Notes under the pieces: model-generated
What the model was told of the DNA's origin: nothing
The model's database searches: none
What the model saw: only the letters and a program-made list of their open reading frames with translations
Position numbers and translations under genes: made by a program
Origin: Haloglomus salinum
GTDB taxonomy: Archaea > Halobacteriota > Halobacteria > Halobacteriales > Haloarculaceae
Assembly (NCBI RefSeq): GCF_024298825.1
Contig: NZ_CP101153.1
Location: 2,294,001 to 2,358,000 of the forward strand
Length of the DNA: 64,000 bases
Reading direction: 5' to 3'
Shown here: positions 14,986 through 58,090 of the stretch, in pieces
Position numbering within the stretch: position 1 is the first letter of the stretch
How the letters are laid out: every line of letters starts with the position of its first letter

Positions 14986-15306
14986 GAAAGCCCCCGGCCG
15001 CTCGACCAGCCGCGGCTCGCTGCGCTCCTCGCGGTCCGGGCGTGCGGCGGCTCCCTCCGGTCGCCCCCGTTCCGGGCATTCGCTGCGGTGCTTGCATCGC
15101 CGGGGCTGGGTCGAGCGGCCGGCCCCTTTCAGTCCCGCCCTGGTGCCTGTTCGGCTGGGCGTCTGCACGTGGTGGTTCCAGCGAGGCGCAGGATCCCCAA
15201 ACCTCCCCGCGCTCGCGCCGAACGGGCTCCGGCACGCTCACTGACGTTCGCGGCCTCCGCTGGATGGCGCGAGCGCGCTTCCTGGTCTCGGAACCGGCTG
15301 ACCAGG
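14986..15306 (+). repeat. Dispersed intergenic element, copy 1
   Basis: About 320 bp beginning gaaagcccccggccgctcg, with an inner gctgcggtgcttgcatcg, then cccctttcagtcccgccctg, a tail with gtggttccagcg and aacctccccgcgc, and ending near ctcggaaccggctg. The same ordered blocks occur in inverse orientation at 39801-40140. No open frame or transposase is associated. Confidence 0.75.
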
Positions 15307-15404
15307 CAACCACCGCCGGGCCGGGAGCGCGTGGCCGAGCGCGGACGCGCGAGGCCCGCGCGACCCGGGGAAGGGCAGGGCCGCCGCGAGCCTCCACAGT
15401 CAGT

Positions 15405-15534
15405 ATCGGGTGGGAATGGAAGGGGCCGCGGGCTCGACCGTTCCCGGGCGACGCAAGCACCGCAGGGAGTGAGCGGAGCGAACGACTGAGGAGCGCAGCG
15501 AGCCCCGGAACGTCGAGCCCGCGGGGGCTTCCTA
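15405..15534 (-). repeat. Dispersed intergenic element, copy 2
   Basis: About 130 bp, inverted relative to copy 1. Read on the minus strand it starts ggaagcccccgcgggctcg, contains ctgcggtgcttgcgtcg and ends ccccttccattcccaccc. Its ends can pair with each other (gcgggctcgac with gtcgagcccgcgg). Confidence 0.7.
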
Positions 15535-17421: not shown

Positions 17422-17540
17422 GGAAGCCCCTGGCCGCTCGACGCTCCGGGGCTCGCTGTCGTTCGAACGGCGGCGGAGCCGCCTTTCGTGATGACGAGAG
17501 ACGCCGCCAGCCGGCCAGCCCCTTCCATTCCCGCCCGAGA
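17422..17540 (+). repeat. Dispersed intergenic element, copy 3
   Basis: Starts ggaagcccctggccgctcg, followed by acgctccggggctcgctg, a short hairpin (ggcggcggagccgcc) and the end block cagccccttccattcccgcc. It lacks the tail of copies 1 and 5. Confidence 0.65.
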
Positions 17541-19565: not shown

Positions 19566-20399
19566 ATGAGCACGCTGGAAGCGGACGTGACGGAACTGGC
19601 AGCGCGGTACGATGCCGGCAACGTCGACGCGGTCGGAAGCGAGGAACTGGACACGCTGGAGGCCTTCCTCGATGCCCTCGAGTCGGGCGAGATTCGCGCC
19701 GCCGAACCCAGTGACGACGGATGGGAGGCGAACGAGTGGGTCAAGCGCGGCATCCTGCTCAACTTCGGTCTGCGCGACATCCAGGCCTTCGAGCACGGCG
19801 GCGTCACGTACCACGACGTGCTGCCGCTCCGCGAGACCGGCGACCTGCCCGAGCGCGGCACCCGGAACACGCCCACCGGCACCGTGGTCCGCCGGGGCGC
19901 GTACGTGGGTGCGGACGCCATCATGATGTCGCCCGCGTTCGTCAACATCGGCGCGTACGTCGGCGACGGGACGCTCGTGGACTCCTGTGACACGGTCGGT
20001 TCCTGTGCGCAGATCGGCGATGACGTGAAGCTGGGCGCGAACACGCTCATCGGCGGCGTCCTCGAACCCGTCGAGGCCGAGCCCGTCGTCGTCGAGGACG
20101 GCGTCTCGCTGGGCGCCGGCTGCCGGGTCACCTCGGGCTTCGAGGTCGGGGAGAACAGCGTCGTCGGCGAGAACACGCTCCTGACGCCCCGGATTCCCGT
20201 CTACGACCTCGTCGAGGAGGAGGTCATCTACGGCCGGCTCCCACCCGAGCGGCGGGCGTTCATCCGGTACGTCGAGTCCAGCGTCGGCGAACACGACCTG
20301 TTCGACGGCGGCGCGTACAAGCCGGCGGTCGTGGCGACCCACGTCGAGGAGTCGACGCTGGAGGCGACCGAGCGCGAGGACGCACTGCGGGACAACTGA
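19566..20399 (+). CDS. dapD: Tetrahydrodipicolinate N-succinyltransferase
   Basis: A 277-residue left-handed parallel beta-helix acyltransferase that commits the pathway to the succinylase branch. A helical N-terminal domain is followed by hexapeptide-repeat turns (NIGAYVGDGTLVDSCDTVGS, QIGDDVKLGANTLIGG). It starts 6 bp after dapB. A repeat element of about 245 bp separates it from lysA, so it may end the first transcript of the cluster. Confidence 0.93.
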   Translation: MSTLEADVTELAARYDAGNVDAVGSEELDTLEAFLDALESGEIRAAEPSDDGWEANEWVKRGILLNFGLRDIQAFEHGGVTYHDVLPLRETGDLPERGTRNTPTGTVVRRGAYVGADAIMMSPAFVNIGAYVGDGTLVDSCDTVGSCAQIGDDVKLGANTLIGGVLEPVEAEPVVVEDGVSLGAGCRVTSGFEVGENSVVGENTLLTPRIPVYDLVEEEVIYGRLPPERRAFIRYVESSVGEHDLFDGGAYKPAVVATHVEESTLEATEREDALRDN

Positions 20400-20747
20400 G
20401 ACTCAGTATGGTTTCCACTCGAACGCACAGCGACGACGGACAACGGCGGAGCCTCGGAAGCCCTCGCGCTCTCGACTCGCGCGCCTCGCTGCGCGCTTCG
20501 GCCTCGCTTCGCGCTTCGGCCTCGCTTCGCTCGGCCTGCAGTGCTTGCGTCGTCCTCAGAATCGAAGATTCTGCTGGGCTGCGGGAGAGCGAAGCTCTCC
20601 CGAACGGCGTGCTTCGTCGAGAGGATTGTCGGCTCCGCCGACAATCTATTAGCTGGCGGCTTCGCCGCCAGCCGCGCTCGCCCTTCCAGTCCGCCAGGAC
20701 ATCGCCTGTCACACCGAGCGACGCTACTTGCTGGAGAGGTGCGTGCC
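20400..20747. other. Repeat-filled gap inside the lysine gene cluster
   Basis: This 348-bp gap between dapD and lysA is almost entirely filled by dispersed element copy 4. Its presence may separate expression of dapABD from lysA-dapFE or reflect insertion into an operon. A purine-rich patch (ctggagaggt) lies 8-17 nt before the lysA ATG and could assist ribosome binding. Confidence 0.6.
20456..20700 (+). repeat. Dispersed intergenic element, copy 4 (hairpin-rich)
   Basis: Begins ggaagccctcgcgctctcg, continues through a Ser/Arg-like run (cgcttcggcctcgcttcgcg, repeated), then tgcagtgcttgcgtcgtcct, and four near-perfect hairpins at 20557-20573 (cagaatc/gattctg), 20583-20601 (gggagag/ctctccc), 20624-20646 and 20652-20672. 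It ends cgcccttccagtccgcc. The first two hairpins form the shared module also seen at 40.0 and 57.9-58.0 kb. Confidence 0.75.
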
Positions 20748-22064
20748 ATGCCTGATGGCGAGGGCTGGCCGTCGACGACGGAGAACCCGGCTGTTCGGCG
20801 GCTGTCGGACTGGCCGGCGGAGCCCCTGCGCGACCTGGCCGACGAGTACGAGACACCGCTGTACGTGCAGGACCTGGACCGCGTGAAGGCCAACGCCTCG
20901 CGGTTGCGGTCGGCGTTCCCGGATGCGGACCTGAGCTACGCGGTGAAGGCCAACACGACGCGGCCGGTGCTGGAGACCCTCGCCGACCGCGGCGTCGGCG
21001 CCGAGTGCGCGGCCGCGGGCGAGGTGAAGCGGTCGCTGGCGGCCGGCTTCCCCGCGAGTCGAGTCCGGTACACGGCGGTCAACCCGCCGGCCCGGGACCT
21101 CGACTACGTCTGTGGGCTGGACGCCGCGGACGAGATGGTCCTCACGGTCGGCGCGATGGACACCCTGAACCGGGTCGCACAGCGCGACTTCGAGGGCCGG
21201 CTCTGCGTCCGCGTGAACCCGGGCGTCGGCGCGGGCCACCACGCGAAGGTCTCGACCGGCGCGGAGCCGAAGTTCGGCGTCCCCTACGACCGGACGGCGG
21301 CCGTCGTCGAACGGGCGCTCGACCACGGCTTCGAGGTCGTGGGGCTCCACGCCCACGCCGGGAGCGGCATCTCCGGCGATGACCTCTCGGCCCACCGCGA
21401 GCTCGTCCGGCGGATGGGCGCGCTCACGGGCGAGGTGGACGAGGCGCTCGACTTCGTCGCCGTCGGCGGCGGGTTCGGCGTCCCGTACCACGAGGACGAG
21501 CCGCCGCTCGACCTCGACACGGTGGCCGAGGCGACCCGTGAGGCGTACCGCGAGGGGTGGCTGGAGGCCGTGGCGGGCGACGATAGTGAAGACGCGCCGG
21601 CGCCGCCACAGCTCGCCATCGAGCCCGGGCGCTACTTCGTCGCGGACGCGGCCGTCCTCCTGACGACCGTCAATACGGTCAAGCCGACGCCGGAGACGAC
21701 CGTCGTCGGCGTCGACGCCGGGATGACGACCCTGGTTCGGCCGGCGATGTACGACGCCTTCCACGAGATGCGGAGCCTGGAACCGGATGTCCCGCGGCGC
21801 GACACCGTCGCCTGTGATGTCTCGGGGCCGGTCTGCGAGACCGCAGATGTCCTCGCCCGGGACCGGCCGCTGCCGGACCCGTCGCGCGGCGACCTGCTCG
21901 CGGTCGGGAACGCCGGCGCGTACGGCTACGAGATGGCCAGCAACTACAACTCTCGGCCGCGGCCGGCGGTGGTCGCGCTGGAGCACGGCGAGCCACGGCT
22001 CGCGGCACGACGCGAACGGCTCCCCGAATTAACCCGCCTAGAGTCAGAAGCGGAGGACTCTTGA
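20748..22064 (+). CDS. lysA: Diaminopimelate decarboxylase
   Basis: A 438-residue PLP enzyme making L-lysine from meso-diaminopimelate. The barrel starts with ETPLYVQDLDRVKANASRLR and the PLP Lys67 lies in LSYAVKANTTRP; EPGRYFVADA and GAYGYEMASNYNSRPRPA are family motifs of the second domain. The start at 20748 (MPDGEGWPSTTEN) begins after the repeat element; upstream in-frame sequence is repeat DNA. Confidence 0.95.
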   Translation: MPDGEGWPSTTENPAVRRLSDWPAEPLRDLADEYETPLYVQDLDRVKANASRLRSAFPDADLSYAVKANTTRPVLETLADRGVGAECAAAGEVKRSLAAGFPASRVRYTAVNPPARDLDYVCGLDAADEMVLTVGAMDTLNRVAQRDFEGRLCVRVNPGVGAGHHAKVSTGAEPKFGVPYDRTAAVVERALDHGFEVVGLHAHAGSGISGDDLSAHRELVRRMGALTGEVDEALDFVAVGGGFGVPYHEDEPPLDLDTVAEATREAYREGWLEAVAGDDSEDAPAPPQLAIEPGRYFVADAAVLLTTVNTVKPTPETTVVGVDAGMTTLVRPAMYDAFHEMRSLEPDVPRRDTVACDVSGPVCETADVLARDRPLPDPSRGDLLAVGNAGAYGYEMASNYNSRPRPAVVALEHGEPRLAARRERLPELTRLESEAEDS

Positions 22065-22144: not shown

Positions 22145-23110
22145 ATGGTACACATCCAGAAATACCACGGAACGGGCAACGACTTCGTCGTCGTGGACGC
22201 CGCCGAGCGGGTCGGCGACCGGCGGGCGTTCGCACGAGCACTCTGCGACCGAACGACCGGAATCAGCCACCCGGACAGCCCCCACATCGGGGCGGACGGC
22301 GTGCTCTTCCTCCATCTCGAGACGGAGTACGCCTCCCCGCGCGTCGTGATGACGCTCGTCCAGCCGGACGGGTCCGTCGCCGCGATGTGTGGCAACGGCG
22401 CGCGCTGTGCGGCCCGCTGGGCCGCCGAACGCACCGGGAGCGACGAGGTGATGATCGATACGCAGTCCGGGACCCGTCGCGCGGTCATCGCACGAGAGGC
22501 CCCGGACGACGGCAACCGTGGCCACGGTGACGACCGCGGGTTCGGCGACGATGTCACCATCGAGATGGGTCGTCCGCGGTTCCTCCCGGGCGTGGTCCCG
22601 GTCCAGACGGCCGAACCGCTCGTCCAGGAACACGTCGAGGGGCTCACCGTCACGGCCGTCAACACGGGCGTCCCGCACGCGGTCTCCTTCGTCGAGGACG
22701 TGGACGCGGTCGACCTCGAGGACATCGCGCCGGCGGTCCGACACGCCGACGTGTTCCCGGAGGGCGCGAATGTGACCCTCGCCTCGCGCGTGGCCCCGAC
22801 TGGCGACGAGGACGCGGCCTTCCGCCAGCGGACCTACGAGCGCGGCGTCGAGGGTGAGACGGATTCCTGCGGGACAGGTGCGGTCGCCATCGCGGCGGTC
22901 GCCCACCGACTCGGCCGAATCGGAACCGGCGAGACCGTCCGGGTCACCCCGCCGGGTGGTGACCTGTTCGTCACCGTCACCGACGACGATGCGCTCCTTC
23001 GCGGGCCAGCAGTCTTCGAGTTCGAGGCCGAGGTCCCGGAGCCGGGCGTGGGGCCGGACGCCGAACTGGATGTCGACCTGACGGATGCGGGTACCAACAC
23101 GGGCGACTAG
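22145..23110 (+). CDS. dapF: Diaminopimelate epimerase
   Basis: A 321-residue PLP-independent racemase converting LL- to meso-diaminopimelate. The two catalytic cysteines are Cys82 in AAMCGNGARC and Cys242 in ETDSCGTGAVAIA, and KYHGTGNDFVVVD opens the protein as in the family. The start at 22145 gives this opening; an ATG 16 codons upstream is unlikely. dapE starts 4 bp after its stop. The acidic stretch around 123-140 is a halophile-type insertion. Confidence 0.95.
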   Translation: MVHIQKYHGTGNDFVVVDAAERVGDRRAFARALCDRTTGISHPDSPHIGADGVLFLHLETEYASPRVVMTLVQPDGSVAAMCGNGARCAARWAAERTGSDEVMIDTQSGTRRAVIAREAPDDGNRGHGDDRGFGDDVTIEMGRPRFLPGVVPVQTAEPLVQEHVEGLTVTAVNTGVPHAVSFVEDVDAVDLEDIAPAVRHADVFPEGANVTLASRVAPTGDEDAAFRQRTYERGVEGETDSCGTGAVAIAAVAHRLGRIGTGETVRVTPPGGDLFVTVTDDDALLRGPAVFEFEAEVPEPGVGPDAELDVDLTDAGTNTGD

Positions 23111-29138: not shown

Positions 29139-29624
29139 ACCACACCGGATGGGAGAGACACGGATAGTGGGTTTGGTACGGTGGGTTAATCGAGTGGTAG
29201 AGGACTCAGAACGCACTTTAGGACGATTTATCGGGCTACCAGATTACCAACGGGACCCCTCGCGGCGCGGTGGTTGGTACGACAGAGAAACTGTCGACGA
29301 TACGGTGCTGTCATGTAGTGGCTGCATACGCGCGAGCAGGGCGGGACTCCGTCCCGCTTGCAGTCGGACGTAGTCCGACGACGAAGCGAGCGCGTTTGGG
29401 TTCGAGACGGCTTCGCCGTCTCGTCCTCCCGAAAATCTCCGATTTTCGGAGACACCAGCCCGAGCGACCGGAGGGAGCGAGGGCTGGCATTTTTTCTGAA
29501 TGTTTTTTGGCGTCATCAGAACGCGAAGCGTTCTGATTGCCCGTGGAATCGCTCCGCGATTCCACGACGGCGAGCGGTGGCCGGAGGCCACCCGAGCCGT
29601 CAAAAAAGCTCGCGGTGAAGAAGC
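29139..29624. other. Gene-free region between a small wHTH gene and PAN
   Basis: About 485 bp. The right 300 bp is the hairpin element 29334-29607. The left part is a promoter-like region for the 28878-29138 gene. Open frames here are palindrome artefacts. Confidence 0.6.
29334..29607. repeat. Hairpin-array element downstream of PAN
   Basis: A run of short near-perfect hairpins: 29403-29423, 29429-29449, a longer one at 29455-29487 (ccagccc/gggctgg) followed by T6, a second T6 at 29503-29508, then 29516-29536 (tcagaacg/cgttctga), 29543-29565 (gtggaatcg/cgattccac) and 29576-29592. A T6 on the minus strand follows the PAN stop within about 20 nt. The pair of T-tracts around ctgaatg matches a pair at 57946-57962. 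Confidence 0.75.
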
Positions 29625-39800: not shown

Positions 39801-40140
39801 CATCAGGCTGGTTCCGAGAACAGGAAGCGCGCGAGCGCCCACCACCGAGACCGCGACCGGGGGGAGCGTGTCGAGGCAATCGGCGCTCGCGCGGGGAGGT
39901 GTGGGGACCCCGCACTCCGCTGGAACCGCCACACGCGAAGCCCGGTGCAACCAGCAACAGGGCGGGACTGAAAGGGGCCGGGCGCTCGGCGGTTCCCCGG
40001 CGTTCGGGAGAGCGAAGCTCTCCCGCAGCCCATCAGAAATCTCCGATTTCTGAGGACGACGCAAGGACCGCAGCGAGCGAACGAAGTGAGCGACCGAGGA
40101 CCGTGGCGAGCCGCGGGACCCCGAGCGGCCGGGGGCTTTC
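39801..40140 (-). repeat. Dispersed intergenic element, copy 5
   Basis: Read on the minus strand it runs gaaagcccccggccgctcgg, a cgctgcggtccttgcgtcgt block, the two-hairpin module (40034-40052 and 40006-40024), cccctttcagtcccgccctg, cggttccagcgg, cacctccccgcgc and ctcggaaccagcctg. Blocks and order match copy 1 at 14986-15306, which lacks the hairpin module. Confidence 0.78.
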
Positions 40141-49508: not shown

Positions 49509-50765
49509 TCAGTCGCGGCGGATGACCAGCAGCGCCACGGCCAGCAGCCCGCCTACCGCGGCCAGCGGACCGAATCCGGGACCAGACCCGGCCGTGGGCG
49601 TCACCGGTCCCGCGTCCTGTTGCTGCTGGTTCTGTTGCTGATTCCGTTGTTGCTGGTTCTGCTGCTGTTGCTGCTGTGGTTCGGGCGTGGCGGTCGGTGT
49701 CGCCGGGTCGCTGCTGGCGGGGGAGGGTGTCGGCGTGGCGGTCGGCGTCGACTGGCCGCTCGGCTCCGGGGTCGGCGTGGCGGTCGGTGTCGCCGGGTCA
49801 CTGCTGGCGGGTGAGGGCGTCGGCGTCGACTGGCCGCTCCGCTCTGGCGTCGCTGTCGCGGTCGGCGTCGAGCCGCTGGGCGGTGGGGTCGCGGTCGGCG
49901 TCGAGCCGCCGCCACCACCCCCACCACCGCCGCTGGACGGGTCCTCTCCCCGTTTGTAGTACGTGCCGTCCTCGGTCCGGCAGGTCCACTCCTTGTCGGT
50001 GATGCCGGTCGTCCCGCTCGGCATGACGCCCGCCGCGGGACAGGTCTGTGGCGGCGGACCCAGTTTCTCGATGGCGGCCTGGCGGCTGTCACAGCCCTCG
50101 CAGATGTAGACGTAGTCCGTGACAGCGACGGCGAAATCCGTCTGTGTGTCCATCATGGTCGAGCCATTGCTCCGTGCGTACGCCCGGTACCAGCCCGGCT
50201 CGGACGGGTTCTTCTGGCAGCCGTTCAGCCCGGCGATGACCTGGTCCTCGACGTTGATCTTGATGGGGCCACCGGCTAGCTTCTCCTCCTTGTAGTAGCC
50301 GGTGTAGATGCCGTCCGAACGGAACTTCAGCACCTTGGCTGCCGACAGGAGCGAGACGTCGGTCTCGGTTCCCCCGTTGTCGTTCCCCCGGTCGACACCG
50401 TAGGCGGCGGCGTTGCTCGCGGTACAGCTACTCCAGCTGAAATCGGGCTGGTAGAGGATGTTCCAGTGGAGCCGGATGTCCTCCTGGAATCCCGAGGCGT
50501 AGAGGGCGAAGCCGGACGACGCGCCCGGATTGTGGTTCTTCACGCCGAACGTGAAATTCCCCACGTACTGCATCTCCTCGTCGTCCTGCCGGCCGGCGAC
50601 GAACTTCCCGCCGCCGCCCTTCGCGAGCGCGGTGCCGTTGTCCAGCCGCTCGTCCTGTACCTGCAGCCGTTGCTCCGCCGTGGCGCCCGTCCCGCCGGCG
50701 GTCACCACCGGTGCGACTAGGACCACGGAGACCATGATAGCGAGTGCCACGTTGGTGTGTTGCAC
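49509..50765 (-). CDS. PGF-CTERM surface protein with repetitive Thr/Pro and Gln-rich stalk
   Basis: A 418-residue secreted protein: a signal peptide (about 1-25), a globular domain (about 30-270, with several Cys: QPDFSWSSCTASNAA, ICEGCDSRQAAIEK, WTCRTEDGTYYKRG), a Gly9 linker, Thr/Pro/Ser repeats, a Gln/Asn-rich stretch, and the archaeosortase signal GSGPGFGPLAAVGGLLAVA ending in RRD. The start is GTG at 50765 with ggagg about 8 nt before it. The stalk is expected to be O-glycosylated and the chain cell-surface anchored. Ligand unknown. Confidence 0.8.
   Translation of the reverse strand: MQHTNVALAIMVSVVLVAPVVTAGGTGATAEQRLQVQDERLDNGTALAKGGGGKFVAGRQDDEEMQYVGNFTFGVKNHNPGASSGFALYASGFQEDIRLHWNILYQPDFSWSSCTASNAAAYGVDRGNDNGGTETDVSLLSAAKVLKFRSDGIYTGYYKEEKLAGGPIKINVEDQVIAGLNGCQKNPSEPGWYRAYARSNGSTMMDTQTDFAVAVTDYVYICEGCDSRQAAIEKLGPPPQTCPAAGVMPSGTTGITDKEWTCRTEDGTYYKRGEDPSSGGGGGGGGGSTPTATPPPSGSTPTATATPERSGQSTPTPSPASSDPATPTATPTPEPSGQSTPTATPTPSPASSDPATPTATPEPQQQQQQNQQQRNQQQNQQQQDAGPVTPTAGSGPGFGPLAAVGGLLAVALLVIRRD
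49684..49851 (-). repeat. 90-bp imperfect tandem repeat inside the PGF-CTERM gene
   Basis: Two units start ggcgtggcggtcggtgtcgc at 49684 and 49774; the second lacks 12 bp internally. They encode SGQSTPT..PSPASSDPATPT units of the stalk. In-frame unit number may vary between strains. Confidence 0.8.
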
Positions 50766-57659: not shown

Positions 57660-58090
57660 GGGCGCGTGAACGAGACTAGCAGAACGCACTGGGGTAGCTC
57701 TTGGGTCGAAATCCAGCGGCTGGTTACGCGGGGAGCGGGAACCGACTCCCTGTGAAGACGGACCCGTTGCTCCCGTGCGAGGAGCCACTGCGGTTCACTC
57801 CCTGTATACCGCGCCGCAGGCGCGGTTTCACTCCTCCGAGACGAGTGTCCTGCTGCTCGGAAGAGCGTAGCTCTTCCGTACCCATCAGAAATCGAAGATT
57901 TCTGAGGATGGCCGCAGGCCAGCAGGTCCGAGTCGAGGAGGAGCCTTTTTTGAACGTTTTTTGCGCAAGTGGTTCGCGCAGAGCGCCGTTCGGGAGAGCG
58001 GAGCTCTCCCGCAGCCCATCAGAAATCGAAGATTTCTGAGGACGGCGAAGCCGGCGCACAAGCGAACCCGCAGCGGAAAAAAGCTCGAGT
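57660..58090. other. Gene-free region downstream of rpoA2
   Basis: About 430 bp, mainly occupied by the hairpin-array element at 57825-58083 and followed by an upstream region of the 57219-57659 gene. In other haloarchaea nusA and ribosomal genes S12 and S7 follow rpoA2; none is present here. Confidence 0.6.
57825..58083. repeat. Hairpin-array element downstream of rpoA2
   Basis: Two copies of the two-hairpin module: 57859-57877 with 57886-57904, and 57992-58010 with 58020-58038. Between them T6 tracts at 57946-57962 (ttttttgaacgttttttg) match the pair at 29490-29508. On the minus strand a T6 lies just after the rpoA2 stop (58077-58082 read as A on the plus strand). Confidence 0.78.

Follow-up and report, generated by a model that had tools for sequence, protein, structure and literature searches.

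The stretch of DNA analysed here, referred to as the window, comprises 64,000 nucleotides (positions 2294001-2358000) of a 4.19-Mb haloarchaeal chromosome. The nearest named relatives of the source genome are Haloglomus halophilum and H. irregulare. The lysine genes of the window are arranged in the order dapA, dapB, dapD, lysA, dapF and dapE. The dapA and dapB genes overlap by 4 nt and dapB is separated from dapD by 6 nt, but the gap between dapD and lysA measures 348 bp. An initial sequence-only reading had described an otherwise compact lysine operon that is interrupted by a repeat element, and this description was confirmed. The tight spacing that it reported for both halves of the cluster applies to dapA, dapB and dapD, but not to lysA and dapF, which are about 80 nt apart (lysA ends at 22064 and the likely dapF ATG is near 22145). 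A repeat is indeed present in the gap, but the unit proper does not fill all 348 bp, as had been assumed (Table 1).

Table 1. Features at the dapD-lysA junction (window positions)
Feature	Position	Strand	Details
dapD, upstream gene	19566..20399	+	stop TGA 20397-20399
Bridging ORF, 115 aa	20408..20755	+	ATG 8 nt past dapD stop; TGA 20753-20755, 8-nt overlap with lysA start
Repeat unit, right-type	20456..20693	+	5' arm GGAAGCCCTCGCGC, 3' arm GCGCTCGCCCTTCCAGTCC
18-bp tandem duplication relative to H. halophilum	20494..20535	+	from alignment; placement inside the duplication arbitrary
Twin-hairpin module A, 54 bp	20553..20606	+	absent at orthologous site of G001, flanking bases joined there
Twin-hairpin module B (hairpins 20624-20646 and 20652-20672)	20620..20673	+	same place in L143, L147 and L149 units
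Beginning of the middle region of the element (truncated ahead of lysA)	20694..20725	+	from alignments
lysA, downstream gene	20748..22064	+	start ATG 20748

The gap copy contains one right-type unit only; the second unit is missing. A unit of the family is about 110 nt long and reads, in this order, GAAAG or GAAG, stem, conserved box, inner hairpin, second box, other stem arm, and CTTTCAGTCC or CTTCGAGTCC. In full copies, which total about 550 bp, a middle region is flanked by a pair of facing units, each an inverted copy of the other. A shorter class also exists. At least 31 facing pairs were present among the source-genome matches listed, and our own reading of the matches in other genera identified head-to-head units 27-37 nt apart at nine loci. 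Inspection by eye of the source-genome matches listed did not reveal a gene-carrying autonomous copy between two units. All 37 unit clusters examined (pooled from 61 matches minus four weak ones) were intergenic, 13 of them in divergent, 8 in convergent and 16 in tandem arrangement, with no orientation preference. Within the window, a full-length copy (left unit, middle, right unit) lies at 14986-15532 between two minus-strand genes, and a weak unit (17422-17531, 37.6 bits) lies upstream of dapA, so that the dap operon has a unit both before and inside it.

With the 348-bp gap as query, at least 65 matches were found in the source genome (40 of 145 candidates scored). A covariance model built from 25 units, with a seed (A3) that excludes units with nested modules, raised this number to at least 106 (150 of 11,245 candidates scored). 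As the scoring covered a subset of the candidates, all genome match counts are lower bounds. On the gap copy, model R1 scored the core alone (20501-20554, 35.7 bits), and on the orthologous gaps it recovered the whole unit in G001 (55.2) and H. halophilum (50.9). Model matches occurred in at least 45 of 59 relatives and at least 34 of 43 genera, and in at least 17 of 19 genomes of Halobacteriales versus none of 101 others of the phylum. Parts of the element were also found on 21 plasmid records, all with haloarchaeal names among those listed, none of which had a single place covering 80% of the query. A scan of the window with Rfam at the gathering threshold gave no match in the gap. Its sole match in the window was the eL15 ribosomal protein leader (RF03144, 40270-40352), which lies near a unit with a nested type-A twin-hairpin module (39965-40140). 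A structured repeat that is so abundant in one genome and matched in most tested genera of the order is thus present in the window without an Rfam match. Searches of the literature for the repeat family brought up no description among the records listed, and with sequence strings no haloarchaeal case was present among the 20 listed of 121 hits.

Of the four strong hairpins that had been reported in the gap, three are perfect, with stems of 9-10 bp and 3-nt loops (20582-20602, 20624-20646 and 20652-20672). The fourth (20557-20573), the twin of the first of these, is weaker, with a stem of 7 bp. The hairpins make up two twin-hairpin modules, A and B, nested in the gap unit. Twin hairpins were above chance in the window (8 versus 0 in mononucleotide shuffles). 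Most of the nested hairpins close with C(GNA)G or the complement of it, and GNA loops are described as making DNA minihairpins unusually stable (PMC4686876). In hairpins that have a triloop and a stem of at least 8 bp, GNA/TNC loops accounted for 14 of 17 in the window and 48 of 64 in the window together with the fetched repeat loci; in other source-genome stretches totalling 400 kb, the figure was 12 of 34. A genome-wide GNA-loop bias was therefore rejected, the bias being a property of the repeat loci. The comparison stretches, which contained 2 model matches to units, were placed by hand across the genome, avoiding loci already sampled, and are thus neither random nor a basis for an estimate of unit density. 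One hairpin with a GAA loop in the gap reads TTC in the H. halophilum copy, the result expected of loop inversion. The same GNA/TNC triloops also occur in twin hairpins at 29403-29592 and 57858-58039, outside any model-found unit. Imperfect repeats of about 53 nt (GGCGTGGCGGTCGG...) occupy window positions 49684-49862, and a unit in L151 (3010-3172) has its 5' end repeated in tandem with a 54-nt period.

The stems of the units co-vary. In the seed set, 13 of the 25 pairs had changed on both sides, and 95.7% were standard pairs, versus 82.7% in shuffles and 34-45% when the arms were slid. G-T occupied 1 of 400 cells of the main stem. In an alignment of 61 matches from congeners and other genera, the 963 ungapped cells of the main stem comprised 926 Watson-Crick pairs, 7 G-T, 15 A-C and 15 other mismatches; fitting this alignment to the model favours pairing in general, without preference for any type of mismatch. 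Covariation this clean would be called a conserved RNA by an RNA-motif search. Selection on RNA should, however, tolerate G-U pairs, and their near absence points to DNA hairpin pairing or hairpin-templated copying, rather than RNA pairing. We rejected the reading of the unit as an RNA gene, as G-T was rarer than A-C outside the source genome (7 versus 15 of 963) and nearly absent from the seed set (1 of 400).

Other copies of the family have moved recently, as judged from sequence comparison. A 471-bp copy in L131 has empty orthologous sites in G001, G002 and G003, and near-identical copies were found at unrelated sites (L121 and L131, 94%; L212 and L213, 98.9% over 457 bp; L217 and L218, 96% over 424 bp). 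Transposition and recombination between intergenic regions may both account for such copies, and we prefer neither. At the recent copies and at the empty site, the flanks have diverged and no target duplication could be recognised. Four genomes that are all 99% complete and carry 22-62 units (G037, G058, G005 and G026) gave no match to PF01797 (Y1/RAYT), and dependence on RAYT was rejected because a Y1 transposase was not found in such complete, high-copy genomes. The source genome has 3 PF01797 matches, none of them close to a listed unit. All of its 13 PF07282 and 9 PF01385 matches are more than 1 kb from any listed unit, the nearest IS605-type gene being about 3 kb away.

The family is best read as transposase-free mobile palindromic repeats that resemble PATEs and REPINs, yet depart from each in at least one defining feature. 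PATEs, the palindrome-associated transposable elements of Haloquadratum walsbyi (PMC3119063), are also haloarchaeal, transposase-free and high in copy number, with heterogeneous outer ends and palindromes near both ends. The latter is true of the full copies here, the gap copy having one unit only. No target duplication is seen in PATEs, and with the diverged flanks of our copies none could be recognised here. PATEs, as portrayed there, lack terminal inverted repeats, whereas here the units at the two ends mirror each other as inverted copies, and the present family is spread over a whole order. PATE palindromes are further related to IS605-type transposons, and in the present comparison, which concerned gene proximity in the source genome, no listed unit lies within 1 kb of an IS605-type gene. 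The same source describes the small mobile repeats SMR-A of Haloquadratum, which insert without target duplication inside near-terminal PATE palindromes (PMC3119063). The twin-hairpin modules similarly sit inside unit stems, but they measure about 50 bp and consist of two adjacent hairpins, whereas SMR-A are about 110 bp long with inverted ends. REPINs or BIMEs with RAYT (PMC3116915) share the inverted doublets of palindromes, mobility, intergenic location and singlets as remnants, and inverted doublets were indeed found here. A comparison by size sets REP palindromes, given as 20-40 bp with a GTAG or CGTC tag (PMC3733652), apart from our units of about 110 nt, and REPINs differ in having a cognate RAYT (Y1) transposase, which several of the 99% complete high-copy genomes do not show.

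The recent insertion that had been suggested for the gap copy was not supported by comparison with related genomes. The dapD-lysA gap measures 348, 330, 309, 156 and 82 nt in five Haloglomus genomes, and in each of them the unit is retained at least at its 5' end. In G022 and G063, which come from a different genus, the gap is 97 nt long and has a short match to the 3' end of the unit, a shorter look-alike that rests on about 24 aligned bases. These remnants indicate that the gap copy is old and predates the genus Haloglomus. Within the genus, the hairpins vary in presence and loop. The 18-bp duplication is found in the source strain only, and module A was likelier gained in the ancestor of the source strain and H. 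halophilum than lost exactly, although the polarity is unproven. Among 78 dapD-lysA loci, an exact 4-nt overlap was found in 28 and a gap of at most 61 nt in 52, which points to a tight ancestral junction; the seven loci of this clade are included, and some genomes, such as that behind L010 and L039, are represented by two loci. The occurrence of the same gap in distant genera had been named as an observation that would refute the initial reading, and the outcome was mixed. In most genera the two genes overlap or are a short distance apart, yet in Haloterrigena salina (L074, 3918-4171) the gap contains a complete head-to-head unit pair, which represents an independent insertion at the same junction.

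It had also been proposed that the repeat attenuates or splits transcription. Intrinsic terminators of archaea are recognised by a U-rich tract. No run of T in the gap is longer than three, and no clear AT-rich promoter-like box precedes lysA, so that lysA is probably reached by read-through from dapD. The bridging ORF described below likewise argues for continued translation, and the proposal was not supported. An attenuator or RNA-processing element that lowers or tunes lysA expression relative to dapD might be suspected from the strong hairpins and from the folding of the gap as single-stranded RNA, which was modestly better than in dinucleotide shuffles (z of -2.5 and -2.3 for the two strands). 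Such a role is improbable in view of the missing U-tract, the stems that co-vary with hardly any G-U, the differences in hairpin presence and loop among congeners, and the lack of a 3'-end preference of other copies. A separate lysA promoter, marked by the hairpins and the unit and splitting the operon, appears very improbable. By eye, an AT-richer stretch directly precedes lysA after a long gap in Haloterrigena salina and Natrinema zhouii, but nothing comparable precedes lysA in Haloglomus, where only a TATTA in module B (20647-20651), about 97 nt upstream, could pass as a weak promoter box.

An ORF bridges the gap between dapD and lysA in all seven genomes of the clade, starting 5, 8 or 11 nt past the dapD stop and overlapping lysA by 4 or 8 nt; these genomes are not independent, since five are congeners and the junctions of G022 and G063 are nearly the same. 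Elsewhere, gaps of 10-450 nt hold such an ORF at only 1 of 14 loci (L279, 9 aa; 0 of 13 in a first set and 1 of 3 in a second). This count omits L274 and L275 (23-nt gap, no bridge), which represent the same junction as L029, L274 and L029 being the same genome, and becomes 1 of 16 if they are included. In dinucleotide shuffles, a bridging ORF arose with a chance of 0.010-0.063 per genome. When the frame was shifted, five of six genomes lost it in every trial, and in G001 a shift of 1-2 nt left it in 40 of 80 trials. Indels of 18 and 54 nt are among those that separate congeners at the junction, and the ORF stays in frame across the net differences in gap length. The bridging peptide is poorly conserved.

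DNA rich in GC contains few stops, and the open frame might be a by-product of such sequence in an inert intergenic repeat, with lysA using its own ribosome entry on a read-through mRNA. The purine-rich GGAGAGG upstream of lysA and the exclusively intergenic, orientation-indifferent placement of the clusters fit this explanation. We nevertheless consider it rather unlikely, given the contrast between the clade and the other loci, the low chance of a bridge in shuffles and the in-frame indels.

We lean instead, with restrained confidence, towards the reading that the gap holds a truncated right-type unit from an old insertion, that it is transcribed through, and that lysA is coupled to dapD via the bridging ORF. 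A transposase-free mobile palindromic element would have entered the junction before the Haloglomus species diverged and broken an overlap of dapD and lysA. It would then have decayed in some lineages and gained nested twin-hairpin modules in others, while being read through within the dap operon transcript. The bridging ORF would relay ribosomes from dapD to lysA, by termination-reinitiation twice over. Of this, the family membership of the unit, its conservation at the junction, the mobility of other members and the presence and frame of the ORF are shown, and read-through, translation of the ORF and coupling are inferred. In Haloferax volcanii, genes are coupled where they overlap briefly or lie very close together, and reinitiation falls to 40-60% at a distance of 13/14 nt and is lost or nearly lost at 22-23 nt (PMC10666635). 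By these limits, the bridging starts at +5 to +11 would be within reach, but gaps of 82-348 nt would not, and the proposed overlaps with lysA are similarly short. The system proposed here would differ in that an extra ORF relays ribosomes across a long gap. The bridging ORF would offer a simple, testable case of an operon surviving a mobile insertion. More tentatively, as a joint proposition that we regard as possible but somewhat short of probable, the operon may have restored the repeat-broken coupling by means of an open ORF, later hairpin insertions and duplications at the junction may have been filtered for multiples of three, and the repeat may represent a hitherto undescribed family that spans the order and keeps its stems as DNA hairpins, as the Watson-Crick-only co-variation and the GNA triloops of the nested hairpins would suggest. 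In Natrinema zhouii (L112), an apparent small AbrB-type gene, identified by eye, lies in the dapD-lysA gap instead.
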